Assembly (NCBI RefSeq): GCF_002979755.1
Contig: NZ_PCPP01000002.1
Coordinates: 434,001-498,000 of the forward strand
Direction: 5' to 3'
Origin: Chryseobacterium culicis
GTDB lineage: Bacteria > Bacteroidota > Bacteroidia > Flavobacteriales > Weeksellaceae
Length of the DNA stretch: 64,000 bases
Part shown: in pieces, positions 5,941-51,386 of the stretch
Layout: every line of letters starts with the position of its first letter
Numbering within the stretch: the stretch's first letter is position 1
Notes under the pieces: model-generated
Told to the model about the DNA's origin: nothing
Database searches by the model: none
Seen by the model: only the letters and a program-made list of their open reading frames with translations
Made by a program: the position numbers and the translations under genes

Positions 5941-6819
5941 ATGAGCGAATTAGAAAATATTCTGAGAGAAATAACTCCACTGTCTCCTGAGGATAGTTTT
6001 CTCGTATTTGACAGGATTAAAGCATCATTTGACTTTCCCTATCACTATCATCCGGAAATTGAAATCAACTTTATCTACAAAGGAAAAGGATACCGCAGAA
6101 TGGTAGGAGATCATACGGGAGAGATCGGAAATATAGAATTGGTATTGGTAGGGCCAAATTTACCCCATTGCTGGGCTAATTACAGATGCAAAAACAGAAA
6201 AACCCACGAGATCACGATACAGTTTAATCAGGATTTCTTTCACCAATCGCTGATGGAGAAAAATATTCTTAAACCTATCAATAATCTGATGAAAGATTCC
6301 ATTAGAGGAATACTTTTTTCAGCTGAAACTGCTGAGAAACTAAAAGATTCGTTTCTCAATCTGTCAAAGATGAACAGTTTTGAATCATTCATAGAAATTA
6401 TGAAGATTCTCAATGAACTGGCTGTTGCTGAAAATAAAATACTTTTATCGTCTTATAGTATTGAGCTGGAGACTTTTGCTGACAATGATAAAATGAAGAT
6501 CATCCACGATTTTGTTCATAAAAATTTTGAAAATAAAATCACGCTGGATAAAGTGGCTTCCATGGTGAATATGAGCAATGTGACTTTCAATAGGTTTATT
6601 AAGAAAAGAACCGGAAAGACTTTTATTAATTATCTGAATGAGATAAGAATCAGCTATGCTGCACGCTGGCTGATGGAAAAAAATCTTACGGTCTTTGAAA
6701 TTGCTTTTGAAGCCGGATTTAATAATATTGCCAACTTCAATAAGGTATTTAAGTCCATTAAAAAGACAACTCCCACTGAATTTAAAGAACAGTTTAAAGG
6801 AGTGAAAAAAATTGAATAA
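5941..6819 (+). CDS. AraC-family regulator at the head of the N-glycan PUL
   Basis: A 292-residue regulator: N-terminal AraC-type cupin (about 15-110; FPYHYHPEIEINFIYKGKGYRR gives the metal/ligand-type HxHxE start) and C-terminal AraC HTH domain (about 190-287; VFEIAFEAGFNNIANFNKVFK). It lies upstream of susC in the same direction but is separated by its own terminator (6875-6899), so it is a separate unit. Position suggests it senses a released sugar and activates the PUL. The 14-bp palindrome TACAAAGATTTGTA-like site at 5886-5899 sits 41 nt before its start. Confidence 0.87.
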   Translation: MSELENILREITPLSPEDSFLVFDRIKASFDFPYHYHPEIEINFIYKGKGYRRMVGDHTGEIGNIELVLVGPNLPHCWANYRCKNRKTHEITIQFNQDFFHQSLMEKNILKPINNLMKDSIRGILFSAETAEKLKDSFLNLSKMNSFESFIEIMKILNELAVAENKILLSSYSIELETFADNDKMKIIHDFVHKNFENKITLDKVASMVNMSNVTFNRFIKKRTGKTFINYLNEIRISYAARWLMEKNLTVFEIAFEAGFNNIANFNKVFKSIKKTTPTEFKEQFKGVKKIE

Positions 6820-7205
6820 TATTCTTTTACAACTTACTTTTTCTGTATCATCAGCTTAAAATAAAACACAAAACCGGGTATTTATATCCGATTTTTTTTG
6901 GATAAAATGTAAGATAAATCCCCTTTTTTCTATTGATTTTAATGTGGTGTATTTTATTGATATATAATCGTTTAGTTGCTTTTTAATAAAATTGCTGAAA
7001 AAATAATATCGTTTTATGATAAAATAGTATTATATCAGACTGGTTACAAAATTTAGATTTGTGAATGTGAATTAAATCTTAACAAAACTTTAAATTATTT
7101 AATACATAAACGATAAAATTTTGCTGAAAAAACAATAATTTTTTTTGTATTGAATAACAAAGCAATGTCATTGATTCTCAATTAAATCTAACGAATCTAT
7201 ACCTT
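6820..7205 (+). promoter_or_regulatory. 386-nt regulatory region before susC
   Basis: Very A/T-rich with no gene. It starts with a terminator for the AraC gene (stem 6875-6881 with 6884-6890, then eight T). Then come three copies of an ATCGTTTA-like motif (6967-6974, 7008-7016, and inverted at 7107-7114) and a direct repeat containing TTGCTGAAAAAA (about 6992 and 7121). TAGATTTG at 7055-7062 fits the -7 consensus, giving a leader of about 135 nt before susC; no clear -33 TTG is seen, which fits activator-dependent expression. Confidence 0.5.
6875..6899 (+). terminator. Terminator of the PUL AraC gene
   Basis: A 7-bp stem (6875-6881 with 6884-6890, one G-T pair) is followed by eight T residues (6892-6899). 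Confidence 0.6.
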
Positions 7206-10166
7206 ATGAGAAAAGCAGTTATACCCGTTCTGTTCGTTTTTTCACTTACTGCGAATGCACAGGAGAAAAAAGCGGCCGACACTACGAAGACAACCAGTAT
7301 TGAGGAGGTCGTGGTCACCTCTTTGGGGATAAAAAGGCAGGCCCGCTCTTTGACGTATTCCAGTCAGCAGATTGGTGGAGATGAGCTTACAGAAGTGAAA
7401 ACTCCCAATCTATTAAATTCGATCAATGGAAAAGTATCCAACGTACAGATCAACAGAACCAATGGTGTAGGAAGCTCCGTAAGGGTGATCATGAGAGGGA
7501 ATAAATCTGTAAACAATGCACAGCCATTATATGTAATTGATGGTATTCCAATTATCAACGGAACAGGAAAGTCAGCAGATATCGGGCAGTATTCTAATAT
7601 GCCGGATCCGGGAGATGTACTGAGCTCCATCAATCCGGATGATATTGAAAGCATCAACTTCCTAAAAGGAGCTTCTGCTTCTGCACTGTACGGTTCTGCC
7701 GGAGGTAACGGAGCTATTTTGATTACCACTAAAAAAGGGCGTGCAGGAAAAAGTTCAATTACTTACAGTTCCAGCCTTACAGTAGACAGAGCGTATAGCC
7801 TTCCAAAACTACAGCACAGTTATTTGTCTTATGATCCATCTGTTGCTGGTCAGCAGCCAGGTCAGGCGGTAGACAGCTGGGGTGCAAAAGGATCTTCAAA
7901 GGATTATCTTAAAGATTTTCTGCAAACAGGAACTACATGGGTAAACAGTCTTTCTTTCCAGTCAGGGAATGAAAAATCTACAAACTATTTCTCTATCGGA
8001 AATACGACCAATAAAGGAGTGGTTCCAATGTCGTATTTTGATCAGTATAATGTCTCTTTCAGAAACTCAAGTAAATTTTTGGATGATAAACTGACATTGG
8101 ATGCCAATTTCATCGGATCATTACAGGAAAGTAAGAACAGACAGACTCCGGGAGCTTCTTTTTCTCCTTTGACAAGTTTGTACTGGTTACCGAGAGGAGT
8201 AGATTTTGACCAATACGGAGGCGATAATTATTCTTATTTGGATAAAACAAGATTTTTGCCAGCTCAAAACTGGTGGGAAGTAAACCCGGATGGAAGTTTC
8301 AAAGGAAATCCTGTGACCCAGAATCCTTACTGGATTTTAAACAGAAACCCGGTTACGGTGAGTAACAAAAATACATACGGTGCCCTTTCATTGTCTTACC
8401 AGATTAATCCATGGTTGACTGCAAGAGTGAGAGGAAACTACAGCTGGAATATTTCAGACAGCCAGCGTGATATTGCTGCTTTTTCAGCGCCAAGCTTACT
8501 GGCTAATGGTATTAATGGTAGAATGCTTAAAAATACCTATGAAAATTCTTCTACTTATGGTGATGTTTTATTGATCGGTAGCCCTAAAGTAAGTGAATCT
8601 ATCTCTTTAGATTTTACAGTAGGAGGAAGTATCAATACGACAAGAAATAAAATAGGACAAATTGATAATGCTTATCTGGCAAATCCTAATCTTTTCACCT
8701 TGAATAACCTTCAGTGGAATGTAAACAGAGCGCCGGGAGATGGATATCATAATACCTATACGAATATGAAAAAACAGGTACAGTCTGTTTTTGCGAGTGC
8801 TTCCGTAGGGTACAAAAATATGTTCTATGTAGACATGACTTTCAGAAATGACTGGGATTCTACTTTAGCATTAACAGGAAGAACCGGATTTGATTATGAA
8901 TCTGTAGGAGCAAATGCTATATTATCTTCTGTTTTCAAACTTCCGGAAGTTATTAATTTCTGGAAAGTAAGAGGGTCTTATGCAACCGTTGGTTTGGGAT
9001 TACCTACGAATATCACCAATGCAATGGTTGAATATAATAAAGGATATGTTTATGGAGTAGATGCAGGAACGATTGTATATCCTAAGAGTTCTTTTGCTAC
9101 AGGGGCAGGTTTTGAGGCATTGCTTCCAAAGCCGGAACTTAATAAAACGTTTGAAGCAGGGACTGAGTTGAGAATGTTGAATAACAAACTGAATTTTGAT
9201 ATTACTTATTATAATTCAAATACCAGTAACCAGTTGTTGGAAACCACAATTCCTTCTTATTTAGGAGGTTTGGCTCCGGGATCCTATTATATTAATGCCG
9301 GAAAAATCCGAAATACAGGTTTTGAATCTTCATTATCTTATAAAATCTTTGATTCGGAAAAATTCGGATGGACTGCTACATTGAATGCATCGGCCAATAA
9401 AAACAAGATCGTTGAATTATTGCCAACAAGCATCAATGTTTCTAAAGACCTGACTTTTTCACTAACCGGAGGTGGTGACTATACAAGATTAAAACTGGGA
9501 GGTTCTTTTGGAGATCTTTACGGAATCAAATTTAAAAGAGATGATCAGGGCCGTGTTCTTGTGAATGAGAAAGGGGTTCCTTTAGCAGAGAGTACACCTT
9601 CTTATTTGGGTAACCCGAACCCTAAGTTTATTATGGGATTCAATAACTCATTTAATATTGGTAAACTGGGAATATCTTTCCTTATTGATGGGAAATTCGG
9701 AGGTAAAGTATTGTCACTTACAGAAAAAGCCAATGATTTATATGGAGTAAGTCAAACCACTGCTGATGCTAGAGATGCTGGAGGCGTATCAATCCCAAAT
9801 GCAGTGTATGCACCGGGAACTCCTAATGCAGGGCAGGCTTATACTGGATTGACTAATGCTAAAGATTATTATAAAGCAGTAGGAACAACCGAAGGATTTG
9901 GAAAAGGAGTTGATGAAGCCTATCTGTATAGTGCTACAACAATACGTTTACGTCAGGCATCTGTTTCATATATGTTTGATGTCAACTCAAAATATTTGAA
10001 AAATGCAACGGTAAGTTTAGTAGGAACCAATTTATTTTTCTTCTACAAGAAAGCACCGTTTGATCCTGAGCAGGTATCAGGGAATACACCAGGTGGAGTG
10101 GGAGTAGATTCATTCGGTCTGCCAGTTACCAGATCTATAGGTTTATCATTAAAAGCTAACTTCTAA
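7206..10166 (+). CDS. susC: SusC/RagA-type TonB-dependent glycan transporter
   Basis: A 986-residue outer-membrane transporter, first structural gene of the PUL. It has a signal peptide (1-18, ending ANA), a short linker, the TonB-box region TTSIEEVVVTSLGIKR, the SusC plug (about 50-165, with PLYVIDGIPI and the end motif GNGAILITTKKG), and a 22-strand-type barrel ending in a terminal aromatic (LKANF). It lacks the N-terminal carboxypeptidase-D-like domain many SusC proteins carry. With the SusD partner 17 nt downstream it should import oligosaccharides, here inferred to be high-mannose N-glycans. Confidence 0.95.
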   Translation: MRKAVIPVLFVFSLTANAQEKKAADTTKTTSIEEVVVTSLGIKRQARSLTYSSQQIGGDELTEVKTPNLLNSINGKVSNVQINRTNGVGSSVRVIMRGNKSVNNAQPLYVIDGIPIINGTGKSADIGQYSNMPDPGDVLSSINPDDIESINFLKGASASALYGSAGGNGAILITTKKGRAGKSSITYSSSLTVDRAYSLPKLQHSYLSYDPSVAGQQPGQAVDSWGAKGSSKDYLKDFLQTGTTWVNSLSFQSGNEKSTNYFSIGNTTNKGVVPMSYFDQYNVSFRNSSKFLDDKLTLDANFIGSLQESKNRQTPGASFSPLTSLYWLPRGVDFDQYGGDNYSYLDKTRFLPAQNWWEVNPDGSFKGNPVTQNPYWILNRNPVTVSNKNTYGALSLSYQINPWLTARVRGNYSWNISDSQRDIAAFSAPSLLANGINGRMLKNTYENSSTYGDVLLIGSPKVSESISLDFTVGGSINTTRNKIGQIDNAYLANPNLFTLNNLQWNVNRAPGDGYHNTYTNMKKQVQSVFASASVGYKNMFYVDMTFRNDWDSTLALTGRTGFDYESVGANAILSSVFKLPEVINFWKVRGSYATVGLGLPTNITNAMVEYNKGYVYGVDAGTIVYPKSSFATGAGFEALLPKPELNKTFEAGTELRMLNNKLNFDITYYNSNTSNQLLETTIPSYLGGLAPGSYYINAGKIRNTGFESSLSYKIFDSEKFGWTATLNASANKNKIVELLPTSINVSKDLTFSLTGGGDYTRLKLGGSFGDLYGIKFKRDDQGRVLVNEKGVPLAESTPSYLGNPNPKFIMGFNNSFNIGKLGISFLIDGKFGGKVLSLTEKANDLYGVSQTTADARDAGGVSIPNAVYAPGTPNAGQAYTGLTNAKDYYKAVGTTEGFGKGVDEAYLYSATTIRLRQASVSYMFDVNSKYLKNATVSLVGTNLFFFYKKAPFDPEQVSGNTPGGVGVDSFGLPVTRSIGLSLKANF

Positions 10167-47041: not shown

Positions 47042-47063
47042 TATTCTTATTGTAAATACATAT

Positions 47064-47093
47064 AAAAAGAGAGCCGTAACGGCTCTCTTTTTT
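47064..47093 (+). terminator. Terminator of LUD-cdsA-psd
   Basis: An 11-bp GAGAGCCGT-type stem (47067-47077 with 47079-47089) is followed by T-rich sequence. Confidence 0.85.
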
Positions 47094-47132
47094 ATTTTGA
47101 CAGTATGAAGTTCAGTAGAGTATTTGAGTTTA

Positions 47133-47196
47133 ACTACGCACGCGTAATATTGCGTACTGGGGCATTGAAACTTTCTGGTGTGGATTAATAATTTTG
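47133..47196 (+). promoter_or_regulatory. Shared motif, site A, with -7 box
   Basis: ACTAC (47133-47137), GTAAT (47144-47148) and GTACT (47154-47158) keep an 11/10-bp spacing identical to site C. TAATTTTG (47189-47196) follows after exactly 30 nt. A TTG at 47165-47167 gives a possible -33 element with a 21-nt spacer. Confidence 0.6.
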
Positions 47197-47447
47197 TATG
47201 CTCAAAAAACACAGGTCTTTAATGTTGATTTTTTATCATTGCTCATAATTTGTTTAATAATTTAATCTGAATTTTAGTAAATTGGAACTGAAAAACACGA
47301 ATCATATTCTTTTATCATTAAAAATTACAGGCGAACATTTTGTCTTGTTAGTTTTTATTTTATTGAGAAGCTATTAATATTGGGAAATTTATGCTTTCAG
47401 TAGTACGAATGCCAACTTGAGCTTGTGAAAACATAAAAAACAACAAG

Positions 47448-48440
47448 ATGATTTATAAGTTTTTCTTTAAGATGATCAATGACGAAACAGAGAAGATGGA
47501 TGACGATTTTGACAGTAATTATCTGCATCTTATCAATCGGTATCTGCTTTTACTGTTTTTCATATTTCTGTTTTATTCCATTTTTATTATCGCTTTTTTC
47601 GGAGATATGTTGATCTCAACATTTCTTACCGTAATTACCTTTTTCTGGCTGTTTCTTATGGCTATAAAAGGAAAAACCAGGCGGTTTAAAAAGGTTTTGA
47701 AAACTTCTATTATCGGTACATTTGTTTTACTGACTTTTATTGTCAACTTTTTTAATATTTATACTTACAAGAATGCAGGGGTAGAATATTTCTACTTTTG
47801 TCTTCTGTTTGCGGTTCCTTTCTTCCTGAATTACAAAAAAGATTCTTTTTCCATCTTTTTTATTACATTCATGATCAGCATCAATTTTATAGTATGTCTG
47901 TATTTTGATTTTGATTTTCTGCCAAAGAGCAGATTTATAGAAAAAGAAGATTTTAAAACAATAAAACTGTTGAATATTTTATTTTCTATTGCTTCCTTTT
48001 TGATGGATATTGTCTTTATTACCCAGAAGGATGCCCTTATCCACGGCTTAATTACGGACAGAAAAGAAAAAGACTCTACCATCAAGGATCTGGTGAAAAC
48101 AAATACAGAACTCATGAAGCACCAGATGCTTATCAATCATCTTTCAGAAGAAAATATCGAGGAAATTTTAAGCCTGGCTGAAAATAATTCGCCTATGTTT
48201 TTTGAAAAATTTCAGGTGTTTTTTCCTCATTTTATTCCTGATATTTTAAAAATAAATCCTAATCTTATCCATTCTGAACTGTATTTCTGTGCTTTGATGA
48301 AACTTGATTTTGATACCAAGAAAATAGCACAATGTACCAATAACAGTATTCGTGCGGTAGAAAGTAAAAAATACAGAATCCGGAAAAAACTGAACATCTC
48401 CTCAGAGATCAACGTTAATAGCTTTCTTATTAAAATTTAA
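47448..48440 (+). CDS. Membrane-anchored HTH (LuxR-like) regulator
   Basis: A 330-residue protein with six predicted helices (about 32-51, 54-73, 86-103, 113-127, 133-152, 173-193), a probable coiled coil (about 200-235) and a C-terminal cytoplasmic LuxR-like HTH (about 270-325; HSELYFCALMKLDFDTKKIAQCTNNSIRAVESKKYRIRKKL). This points to a transcription factor acting from the membrane, possibly sensing the envelope. No kinase or receiver domain is present. It is preceded by motif site A, as are the next genes by sites B and C. Whether it binds those sites is unknown. Confidence 0.82.
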   Translation: MIYKFFFKMINDETEKMDDDFDSNYLHLINRYLLLLFFIFLFYSIFIIAFFGDMLISTFLTVITFFWLFLMAIKGKTRRFKKVLKTSIIGTFVLLTFIVNFFNIYTYKNAGVEYFYFCLLFAVPFFLNYKKDSFSIFFITFMISINFIVCLYFDFDFLPKSRFIEKEDFKTIKLLNILFSIASFLMDIVFITQKDALIHGLITDRKEKDSTIKDLVKTNTELMKHQMLINHLSEENIEEILSLAENNSPMFFEKFQVFFPHFIPDILKINPNLIHSELYFCALMKLDFDTKKIAQCTNNSIRAVESKKYRIRKKLNISSEINVNSFLIKI

Positions 48441-48460
48441 ACAAAATTCCGATTTTTGTT

Positions 48461-48522
48461 ACTTATACGTAGTGTTGAGTAGTATTTGATGGCATTTTTT
48501 GTTTTTCTTGTCAATATTTTTA
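48461..48522 (+). promoter_or_regulatory. Shared motif, site B, with -7-like box
   Basis: Two direct GTAGT pentamers (48469-48473 and 48479-48483) in GTAGTGTTGAGTAGT, then TATTTTTA (48515-48522), a one-base variant of the -7 consensus, after 31 nt. The next start codon follows 15 nt later. Confidence 0.55.
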
Positions 48523-48537
48523 CTTAAAAATATTGTG

Positions 48538-48951
48538 ATGAATATTAAGAACATTCATATTGGGAGTCTGGTCAGATCCAAAGTAGAAGAACATCAGATT
48601 TCAATAGAAAGAATTTCCCGATTTTTAAACAGAGCGGAAGATGAAATAGAAATGATGTATCATGCAAGAAGCATGGATACCGAAGTTCTGTTGAAGTGGT
48701 GCAAGCTTTTAAAATTTGATTTCTTTAGGTTTTATACCAGCCACCTGATTTTATATGCTCCTCAGTCAAGAATTGATAATACAGCCATCCAAAAGGGAAA
48801 GGCGATGGTTTTCCGGAAAAGTATCTATACCCAGGAAGTAAAAGATTTTATACTTGAAAAAATTGATAGTAGTACAATGACGGCTAACGATGTTGTGGAA
48901 CGGTATAAGATTCCTAAAACCACCTTATATAAATGGATGAAAAAAATATAA
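48538..48951 (+). CDS. Small DNA-binding protein with C-terminal transposase-like HTH
   Basis: A 137-residue basic protein. The N-terminal part (SLVRSKVEEHQISIERISRFLNRAEDEIEMM) looks like an XRE-type helix bundle, and the C-terminus (MTANDVVERYKIPKTTLYKWMKKI) is a helix-turn-helix of the transposase-OrfA type. There is no catalytic domain, no terminal repeats and no paired transposase, so it is a stand-alone regulator. The ATG at 48538 is preferred over an upstream in-frame TTG at 48499, inside its promoter. The next gene starts 1 nt after its stop. Confidence 0.78.
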   Translation: MNIKNIHIGSLVRSKVEEHQISIERISRFLNRAEDEIEMMYHARSMDTEVLLKWCKLLKFDFFRFYTSHLILYAPQSRIDNTAIQKGKAMVFRKSIYTQEVKDFILEKIDSSTMTANDVVERYKIPKTTLYKWMKKI

Positions 48952-48952
48952 T

Positions 48953-49273
48953 ATGATGCCTGACTATAAGCAGATTTATACTGATATTCTTCAAGAAAAA
49001 TTCCCTGAAAAATTAATAGATAGCACCATCATGTTTAAGTTGGAAACTCTCCATTCTGCTATTGATATTCTGAAATTTAATCAAATCATTTTTGGTGAAC
49101 CTGAATATACGTTGGGGCGCAAAAGCCAAAGACTCCGTTCTTATGACGAAGAATCTATTTTGAAGATTCTCAGTTATCAGAAAAGAAATGAGCTTACCAA
49201 TCTTCAGCTCAGTCATCATTTTAAAATAAGCCGAAATACCATTGCCAAATGGAAAATCATTTTTAAAGTATGA
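48953..49273 (+). CDS. Second small HTH protein
   Basis: A 106-residue protein without recognised domain except a C-terminal helix-turn-helix (NELTNLQLSHHFKISRNTIAKWKIIFKV), of the same style as the preceding gene. Segment LGRKSQRLRSYDEESILKILSYQK is basic and probably contacts nucleic acid. One nt separates it from the gene before, so the two form a translational pair. Function not identified. Confidence 0.75.
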   Translation: MMPDYKQIYTDILQEKFPEKLIDSTIMFKLETLHSAIDILKFNQIIFGEPEYTLGRKSQRLRSYDEESILKILSYQKRNELTNLQLSHHFKISRNTIAKWKIIFKV

Positions 49274-49574
49274 ATAATTGTGTTTCATTTAATCTCTTGG
49301 CGTTATGATTTTAAATAAATAATCAATAATGATATTTGTGTTGTTTCTGTTTTTCTTTTTTATTTTATGTTTGAGATTTATTAAATAATTCAACTTTTTG
49401 TTAGTGCTTTTTCACGATTGTAAGTTGTTGACTTTTTGTGAGTTTTACTACGCGTGAGTAGTATTGCGTAGTGGGAATTAATTAGTAATGGTCTGTGAAT
49501 GATAATTTTGTGACGGTTAAATGACTGAGCTGCTTGGTTGAAATTTTAATCATTAAACAATTATAATTCATACA
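49274..49574 (+). promoter_or_regulatory. 301-nt region with motif site C before the secreted-protein gene
   Basis: A/T-rich, without a gene or convincing terminator. Its main content is motif site C (49447-49472) and the -7 box at 49503-49510; a leader of roughly 60 nt follows. Confidence 0.6.
49447..49510 (+). promoter_or_regulatory. Shared motif, site C, with -7 box
   Basis: ACTAC (49447-49451), GTAGT (49458-49462) and GTAGT (49468-49472), the last two as GTAGTATTGCGTAGT; ACTACGC and GCGTAGT also form an inverted repeat. TAATTTTG (49503-49510) follows after 30 nt. No -33 TTG is evident, consistent with activator-dependent transcription. Confidence 0.6.
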
Positions 49575-51386
49575 ATGATGGACACAAAATTTACAATGTT
49601 CCCAATCAAAGTCTTGCTGATAGCAATGCTCTTTGCTTTTGGAAAAATTTATTCACAGGCTAATAATGGAGCGGTAGGAATTAATACTACTGCACCCAAT
49701 TCAAACTCTGTTTTGGATGTTGTTTCAGGAAATAATAACAAAGGAGTACTTATTCCGAGGTTAACTGAAACAGAGCGAAATGCAATTGTAATTAATCAAT
49801 CCAAAGATGATGGCTTGACAATTTACAATACCACAGAAGACTGTTTTAATTACTGGAGTCTTGCTGACAATGAATGGAAAAGTGTCTGCGGACAAATGGG
49901 GAAAGCTGTTTTTACCATAGACTGCTCCTCTTCCAAAGCAATGGGAAGCTACGTGAAAGGGAAAGAACTTACCAATTCGAATTACCTGAGCATTGCTGTT
50001 AATGTTACAAAACCAGGGAATTATACCATTTCCGGAACGACAACAAATGGATATAACTTTTATGGAACCGGAGTATTCCTTAATACCGGAACTCAAACCA
50101 TACAGATTCCGGGACAGGGAGCTCCTCAGAATATTCAGACAGATAATGTAGCCCTTGAAGCCAACGGAACTGCTGTTACCTGTACTCCTGCAATTTCTAT
50201 TACGGTACTGAGTCCTTCCGGAACATATACTATGAGCTGTGGAAGTGCAACGGTAAACGGAGTCTATAAAGTAGGAACTGCTCTTACAGCTTCCAATACG
50301 ATTACTTTGCCAGTGAATGTTTCAACACTTGGAAGTTACACCATTACCACCAATACTGTTGATGGAATTTCTTTCAGTGGATCAGGAGTATTTGCTGCTA
50401 CAGGAAATCAGAATATTACACTGCAAGGGACAGGTACACCTTCCTCCACGACTGTAAAAACAATGACCATTACTTCTGACAGCCAGGGAGGAGTTTCCAC
50501 CACATGTACTGTCAATGTGATTGTGGTGGTTCCCAAGAAAAAACTTTTAACCATTGGAACAGCTCCAAATGGTTGTGGATATAATGTATCAGGAACTTCA
50601 CCATCAGGTATGGTGACTAAAGCTGCCGCTAATTTTGGAACACTGGCAAACAGTATTGTAAAATACGAAGGATGGGATCAGATCATAGATGGTACAGACA
50701 GTCCAAATGCCACACAGCTGACAACCTGGACAACGGGAGCAAATCCTGTAGATATTATTGTTATTGGATATGCATGGGGAATGAATGCTGCAGAGGCTCA
50801 GGTATTAAAAAATTATCTGGCAAAAGGAGGTGTAATCGTTGCTTATTCTGAAAGTAATAGCGGAATGCAGAACCTTTTCAGAAATGTTTTTGACGGATCT
50901 GTAAATACCGGAAGTGTAAACAGTGCGGGAGCTATCTATAAACTTCCACTTACCAATGACGAAATACTGAATGGCCCTTTTGGCGATATAAGAGGATTGC
51001 AATGGGGTGAAGATGCTTCTTCTACAACATATGCAACAGGGCTGCCTTCCAGTGAGATTACTGTATATTCAGGAGATACAAATATTTCTACAGCTTCACC
51101 CACAGGAAATGTAGGTCGTGTAACAGCATTTAAGCATAACACCCTGAACTTTATCTGGGTAGGAGATGGAGGATTTAACTCTCAGTGTGGAACTGTTACT
51201 TCTCCCAATACTTCAGATACGATATGTCCATTCTATGCAGATACGAACTATAAACCAATTCCTAAACCCAACTATGGAAATGGGGCAGCTGCCTATGAAA
51301 TGAATGTATATAACTCAATATTCTATGCAAATGCTCTTGCCTGGGCAATTAAAAAGGCAGAATTCAGTGGAATAAACACAAAATGA
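49575..51386 (+). CDS. Secreted surface protein with two Ig-like repeats
   Basis: A 603-residue exported protein. Signal peptide (about 1-27), a stalk-type N-terminus GAVGINTTAPNSNSVLDV followed by KGVLIPRLTETERNAI as in many Bacteroidota surface proteins, then two homologous beta-rich repeats (about 112-215 and 218-320, each with SN..S/TLPVNV, GSYTI and GSGVF). The C-terminal part (323-603) contains DIIVIGYAWGMNAAEAQVLKNYLAKGGVIVAYSES, suggesting a Rossmann-like glutamine-amidotransferase-type fold. No T9SS tail is clear. Site C lies upstream. Function unknown; adhesion or cell-surface binding is inference. Confidence 0.82.
   Translation: MMDTKFTMFPIKVLLIAMLFAFGKIYSQANNGAVGINTTAPNSNSVLDVVSGNNNKGVLIPRLTETERNAIVINQSKDDGLTIYNTTEDCFNYWSLADNEWKSVCGQMGKAVFTIDCSSSKAMGSYVKGKELTNSNYLSIAVNVTKPGNYTISGTTTNGYNFYGTGVFLNTGTQTIQIPGQGAPQNIQTDNVALEANGTAVTCTPAISITVLSPSGTYTMSCGSATVNGVYKVGTALTASNTITLPVNVSTLGSYTITTNTVDGISFSGSGVFAATGNQNITLQGTGTPSSTTVKTMTITSDSQGGVSTTCTVNVIVVVPKKKLLTIGTAPNGCGYNVSGTSPSGMVTKAAANFGTLANSIVKYEGWDQIIDGTDSPNATQLTTWTTGANPVDIIVIGYAWGMNAAEAQVLKNYLAKGGVIVAYSESNSGMQNLFRNVFDGSVNTGSVNSAGAIYKLPLTNDEILNGPFGDIRGLQWGEDASSTTYATGLPSSEITVYSGDTNISTASPTGNVGRVTAFKHNTLNFIWVGDGGFNSQCGTVTSPNTSDTICPFYADTNYKPIPKPNYGNGAAAYEMNVYNSIFYANALAWAIKKAEFSGINTK

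Follow-up and report, generated by a model that had tools for sequence, protein, structure and literature searches.

A proposed membrane-anchored local activator and its 34-bp operator at a near-constant promoter distance in Chryseobacterium culicis

Introduction

NarL, VraR, LiaR and DosR are two-component response regulators that bind inverted or tandem short half-sites. CadC and ToxR have an OmpR-like winged helix at the N-terminus and, as a rule, a single membrane segment, and regulators of this kind often act on a neighbouring operon. ComA is a soluble response regulator. To our knowledge, operators are known for few of the transcription factors found in Flavobacteriia. In the parts of the ComA literature drawn on here, the elements RE1-RE4 of Bacillus subtilis combine an inverted repeat with a downstream direct repeat (5-nt spacer) and are associated with type I and type II activation (PMC4797271).

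Here, four consecutive genes, P1 followed by P2, P3 and P4, are described from the 5.01-Mb genome of Chryseobacterium culicis; they lie in a window of 64,000 nucleotides, the whole stretch of DNA that was analysed (contig NZ_PCPP01000002.1, positions 434,001 to 498,000). Like ComA, P1 is a putative activator with a tetrahelical NarL/LuxR-type HTH, and in its operator an inverted repeat is again followed by a direct repeat with a 5-nt spacer. As far as that source describes them, the ComA elements are hexamers with spacers of 4 nt (inverted) and 5 nt (direct), whereas the P1 operator, TACKC-NN-GMGTA-N5-GMGTA, consists of pentamers with spacers of 2 and 5 nt, and its direct and inverted pairs have one arm in common, unlike those of ComA. 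On this partial comparison, the ComA operator is the closest described to that of P1, which would work in a similar way but is not the same operator and does not class as ComA-type. P1 also differs from ComA in its membrane segments and in that no receiver domain was found in it. The DNA-binding domains of NarL, VraR, LiaR and DosR resemble the modelled C-terminus of P1 in fold, although P1 has no detected receiver domain. With CadC and ToxR, P1 appears to share a membrane-embedded sensor joined to a DNA-binding domain; it differs from them in its NarL-type HTH, which lies at the C-terminus, and in the number of its hydrophobic segments, of which there are several. The protein class is thus already known, and the novelty lies in how the operator is built, in its constant position and in the specificity variants that go with it. 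The earlier note on this DNA had named no described regulon with this site, and none was found among open-licence PMC papers, subscription literature lying outside the scope.

Organization of the cassette

The features of the cassette, in window coordinates, are as follows.

47125 to 47158, + strand: operator A, 34 bp, before P1; contains the 15-mer 47144-47158; from the letters and a comparative matrix
47189 to 47196, + strand: -7 box of promoter A, TAATTTTG, 30 nt after operator A, spacing conserved
47448 to 48440, + strand: P1, 330 aa; NarL/LuxR-type HTH at the C-terminus, hydrophobic segments within residues 25-193; proposed operator-binding regulator
48450 to 48483, + strand: operator B, before P2; its left, inverted arm reads TACTT and is weak
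48515 to 48522, + strand: -7 box of promoter B, TATTTTTA, 31 nt after operator B and 15 nt before the P2 ATG
48538 to 48951, + strand: P2, 137-aa HTH protein; N-terminus Cro/C1-like, C-terminus like a transposase HTH, all below Pfam cut-offs
48953 to 49273, + strand: P3, 106-aa HTH-like protein, paired with P2
49439 to 49472, + strand: operator C, before P4; top score among the three operators
49503 to 49510, + strand: -7 box of promoter C, TAATTTTG, 30 nt after operator C
49575 to 51386, + strand: P4, 603 aa; by eye, N-terminus like a signal peptide; contains beta domains, C-terminal part variable; putative target

The reading that we favour, with a probability of roughly 0.75, is that P1 serves as a membrane-anchored, autoregulated local activator of P2-P3 and of the secreted P4 via operators A, B and C. 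The N-terminal membrane part of P1 would sense a signal, and its C-terminal NarL/LuxR-type HTH would bind the three operators, each comprising an inverted GMGTA pair (centre at about -60), a further half-site one turn downstream (at about -47) and, upstream, a fourth, outer one that is for the most part degenerate; given this layout, two P1 dimers are probably accommodated side by side. Bound P1 would bring RNA polymerase to the promoter and thereby activate the P2-P3 HTH pair, P4, which may act at the cell surface, and, in positive feedback, its own gene. Judged by sequence, the three adjoining genes with their common 34-bp control site are most likely a small self-contained switch for a secreted protein.

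Architecture of the operator

The 15-mers reported by the earlier note are present exactly at 47144-47158, 48469-48483 and 49458-49472. As a unit, however, the 15-mer is only the downstream part of a 34-bp composite site, which emerged when the upstream regions of 70 orthologous P1 loci (L037-L106) were compared; these come from a collection of 173 genus genomes, one per species, orthologues being accepted at a best E below 1e-95 (the next-best match was at 4.3e-78). The site consists of the inverted pentamer pair TACKC-NN-GMGTA and a direct GMGTA one turn downstream, so that the pentamer occupies positions 11-15 (inverted), 18-22 and 28-32 (direct). The 34-bp sequence of operator C is TGAGTTTTACTACGCGTGAGTAGTATTGCGTAGT, and C13, C15, G20, G28 and G30 are strong columns in the 70-locus comparison. 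The additional upstream half-site that had been claimed for A and C is real and corresponds to the inverted arm of the dyad, which is weak in site B. Positions 1-5 are mostly TGAGT or similar and in a few loci read TACGC or TACGT, a mirror of positions 28-32, which suggests a complete layout of four half-sites.

None of 576 shuffled regions scored above 6.7; with this value as the threshold, the site was detected before P1 in 51 of 70 regions, before P2 in 51 of 58 and before P4 in 63 of 64, counts that are descriptive because the matrix was trained on the same loci. In the 19 P1 regions where up to 500 nt yielded no detectable site, P2-P3 precede P1 in 14 and do not in 5. Mean information by group amounts to 0.9-1.6 bits per base within the site and 0.35-0.85 within the spacer.

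Operators A and C have the flank TGAGTTT in common, as would be expected if they were recent duplicates of one promoter whose similarity carries no regulatory meaning. This explanation is very improbable, since loci with as little as 50% P1 identity still have the site, with a diverged spacer, and the geometry is retained where the half-sites are others (see below).

Within the 5.01-Mb genome, the exact 15-mer occurs in three places only, all in the cassette. The genome-wide search suggested by the earlier note thus confined the exact motif to the three sites, but it gave no enrichment with one mismatch (7 matches against 9 for a reversed control); with three mismatches allowed, there are 16 matches in the window against 11.4 expected. 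The significance of the motif therefore rests on clustering and conservation.

Fixed distance to the promoter

The distances of 30, 31 and 30 nt from site to box described earlier are correct, and the second box ends in A, not G. That the distance is constant in other loci, which had been named as a decisive point, is borne out: among sites scoring 15 or more, a TAnnTTT box follows at 30 or 31 nt in 157 of 162 (30 nt in 80, 31 nt in 77), and this spacing is an independent measure, unlike the matrix scores trained on the same loci. The five exceptions concern P4 of L041 and P2 of L063, L094, L095 and L097. The spacer itself is less conserved than either the site or the box. By eye, and in the numbering used here, TTG lies exactly at -33 in none of the three promoters; a conserved TTTG stands at this place in some of the orthologous P4 promoters.

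In the part of the Flavobacterium psychrophilum work drawn on here, the TAnnTTTG box is placed at -12 to -5 (PMC9723704). With this numbering, the dyad would be centred at -60.5 or -61.5 and the last half-site would lie at about -47. Such positions (about -60 and about -47) are usual for activators that touch polymerase. The idea of a transcription-factor site with fixed promoter geometry is thus supported by the 30/31-nt spacing across orthologous loci, and the geometry suggests that the factor probably activates by contact with RNA polymerase.

Operators that serve autoregulation frequently turn out to be repressor sites, and P1 might bind and repress, or repress in one state and activate in another. 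We consider this unlikely, because the site, with its end at about -43, lies upstream of the -7 box, and a near-constant distance of 30/31 nt is what polymerase contact would require.

The P1 transcript is predicted to have a leader of approx. 247 nt (47197-47447), and that of P2 one of only approx. 11 nt; among 51 loci, the distance from the box to the P1 ATG has a median of 280 (range, 169-383). The site lies upstream of the predicted start, for which reason an RNA element was rejected as its explanation. An alignment of P1 leaders (16 of 51) contained no block conserved like the site, the start-codon stretch excepted. By eye, an inverted repeat accompanied by a run of T (47066-47095), located between operator A and the gene before it, looks like a terminator; four sub-threshold Rfam matches, all within 47048-47124, lie around the inverted repeat.

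The P1 protein

P1 has hydropathy peaks at residues 25-75, 83-106, 132-157 and 171-193. Hydrophobic segments and an HTH-like fold (approx. residues 264-330) thus stand in one chain, as in membrane-anchored one-component regulators, with insertion being predicted. The C-terminus is nearly invariant among orthologues. The structure model is poor overall (pLDDT 59.7) and reaches 73-85 over residues 231-330, the C-terminal third. With Foldseek, the C-terminus matched VraR, LiaR and ComA (prob up to 0.97, E above 1); with VIA, approx. residues 264-330 of the model matched DosR, VraR, LiaR and ComA at Z 6.8-7.4 and rmsd 1.7-3.0, where a Z under 8 may reflect a common arrangement. The modelled C-terminus resembles the NarL/LuxR tetrahelical HTH, a C-terminal domain of four helices and about 60 residues. 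Since no Pfam HTH family scored above cut-off in P1, this assignment is supported by the fold and not by sequence alone.

Neither Pfam (E up to 1) nor NCBIfam (E up to 0.1) reported a receiver domain or an autoinducer-binding domain in P1, whose residues 25-193 are largely hydrophobic; P1 accordingly classes neither as a two-component response regulator nor as a quorum-sensing LuxR protein. No solved structure matches P1 by sequence. Residues 246-321 match positions 476-551 of the 563 of NCBIfam family BT3442_fam (NF053779) with an E of 3.9e-7, far below the family cut-off (29 versus 940 bits). According to the part of the source drawn on here, BT_3442 is a TPR protein clustered with perforin-like and other uncharacterised proteins (PMC2954219); how it is regulated is not dealt with there. 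On that description, BT_3442 has TPR motifs and P1 has membrane segments, the likeness being confined to P1 residues 246-321. The named relatives recovered with P1 (26 loci) are all Chryseobacterium records. In Chryseobacterium sp. E1 (L160/L099), the matches to P1, P3 and P4 are split over frames, and in L105 (G118) stops lie inside P1; either decay or sequencing errors may account for both.

Which protein tracks the site

The site is present in 70 of the 70 genomes with a P1 orthologue and in 1 of the 103 without. The sole P1-less genome with the site, G053, holds a lone A-type operator (L161, 5968-6001) behind the gene that also precedes operator A in the window; no match to P1-P4 was found within 12 kb of it, and this operator is apparently the scar of a lost cassette.

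The earlier note had put forward all three HTH proteins, encoded at 47448, 48538 and 48953, as candidate binders, and it is also conceivable that P2 and/or P3 bind the operators and regulate the cassette, with P1 as a co-regulated sensor. Both proteins have HTH-like motifs and are encoded between operators B and C, P2/P3 pairs lie near P1-type genes in many loci, and P2 paralogues elsewhere in the genome are possible binders. In 12 of the 70 loci, however, there is no adjacent P2 match, and the site before P4 is kept in all 12 (in 11 above the null maximum; in L083, it scores 5.2, below that maximum, and is apparently one base out of register). P2-like HTH genes, moreover, occur in 166 of 173 genus genomes (at most 20 matches in one, G061) as against 71 genomes with the site, and the same operator architecture stands at P1 paralogues L163-L165 and L223-L226, where no P2/P3 match was found in the stretch. 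Because the site persists without P2, and P1 paralogues have altered half-sites in the same geometry, P2 and P3 fit badly as the binders, P1 fits, and a P2/P3-driven cassette is improbable, somewhat more so than repression by P1. A defence or transposase reading of P2/P3 was rejected, as the matches are weak and sub-threshold only.

At least 19 P4 homologues lie away from P1 loci, of which 4 stand beside P1 paralogues, 8 were examined and 7 were left out. None of the eight examined, which lie away from P1 genes and have 38-65% local identity, has such a site; four are in genomes without P1 and four in genomes with P1 elsewhere. L217 and L221 are near contig ends, with their neighbours out of view; in L218 and L219, the only HTH-type match is a few kb away, and L220 has a weak symmetric stretch that 5 of 100 shuffles reach. 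Since P1, the operators and P4 are physically linked, their co-occurrence cannot fully separate them.

Local distribution of the site

The dispersed regulon implied by the earlier note did not materialize: the genome itself has three sites only, all in the cassette, also under a laxer search to E 0.1. A scan of the genus with the profile found the site in 71 of 173 genomes at E 0.01, with at most 3 per genome except for 4 in G092, and among the matches listed, the sites adjoin P1 loci, G053 excepted. The fourth match of G092 (24 bits, unlinked, no TAnnTTT box within 60 nt) looks like chance. Across a wider family sample of 148 genomes over 33 genera, the site was found in 8, all Chryseobacterium. 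These large scans were strictly filtered, so weak sites may be missed.

The exact 15-mer has 39 matches in the genus versus 23 for the reversed control, namely 28 at P1 cassettes, 1 at the G053 remnant and 10 elsewhere; the extended site surrounds none of these 10 (the second G088 match was viewed inside the locus of another match). A genome-wide regulon was thus rejected, given that the three sites of the genome are all in the cassette, one-mismatch matches are not enriched and, among the matches listed for the profile in the genus, all but that of G053 lie at P1 loci.

The secreted protein P4

P4 is modular: its first approx. 320 residues are conserved, and the remainder switches between distinct versions among close species. 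Because of this switching, overall P4 identity (window 49575-51386, compared with L135-L159) falls into two classes, 90-94% or 65-69%, in species with 88-94% identity in P1. Given the marked differences in the C-terminal half among close species, surface variation may be under the control of the switch. A fold search returned beta-domain matches with TM-scores below 0.3.

No P4 match was found in 6 of the 70 loci, four of which were inspected (L175-L178). In L175 and L178, what follows the site is another protein that looks secreted and has a similar motif at its N-terminus; L176 has a site after P1, but within approx. 1.4 kb no ORF of at least 60 aa begins. No second site was found in L177.

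Paralogous regulators and other genera

The operators of P1 paralogues were sought with a symmetry score 29-31 nt before any TAnnTTTG box, against 60 shuffles, at 14 paralogue loci. Seven beat all 60 shuffles (L163-L166, L209, L210 and L214), with other half-sites in the same geometry; as they come from only about three regulator groups, they are not seven independent cases. L213 was borderline (5 of 60 shuffles), and the score revealed no such operator in the remaining six (L162, L167-L169, L211 and L212). L163-L165 have GAGTG/GAGTA as half-sites, whereas those of L166, L209 and L214 are GNGGG-like; L210 differs.

In a second genus, g23, P1-like genes occur in four sampled genomes (L223-L226) as tandem pairs before a lipoprotein-like gene. 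All four loci carry, ahead of the pair, CACTT or TACTT, then CACTC-NN-GAGTG and a further GAGTG, in 5-bp steps and 31 nt before the box, with a maximal operator score (21 of 21) that 0 of 100 shuffles reach. A second site lies 30 nt before a box between the tandem pair and the lipoprotein-like ORF, which has the C-terminal domain of P4 (36-38%). In a third genus (L227), the symmetry score revealed no such operator. When gaps of 5-60 were scanned in 12 chosen loci, high-symmetry sites lay at 29-33 nt, with a peak at 31, and in one locus each at 17 and 19.

The letters of the recognition helix vary in step with the half-site (SxRA with GMGTA, TxKS with GAGTG, SLKAxEG with GNGGG), a correlation over few groups in which the tandem-pair assignments are ambiguous. 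We tentatively suggest, at somewhat less than even odds, that the P1 family comprises mutually insulated membrane-sensor/operator pairs in this bacterial family, with 5-2-5 pentamers approx. 30 nt before the -7 box, half-site letters that follow the recognition helix, and each pair controlling a neighbouring, fast-diversifying secreted protein. If so, DNA recognition could be read from these pairs as a code, and the pairs would provide orthogonal switches ready for use. More generally, regulator, operator, promoter position and targets are suggested here from sequence alone, in 70 genomes with natural specificity variants, which predicts changes in DNA recognition and bears on promoter activation in bacteria with the unusual -7 type.

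In L210 (G146), the P4 homologue on the reverse strand at 6485-8290 (67-69%) is preceded by another P1 paralogue that has another operator; it looks as though the two, regulator and operator, had been swapped jointly.
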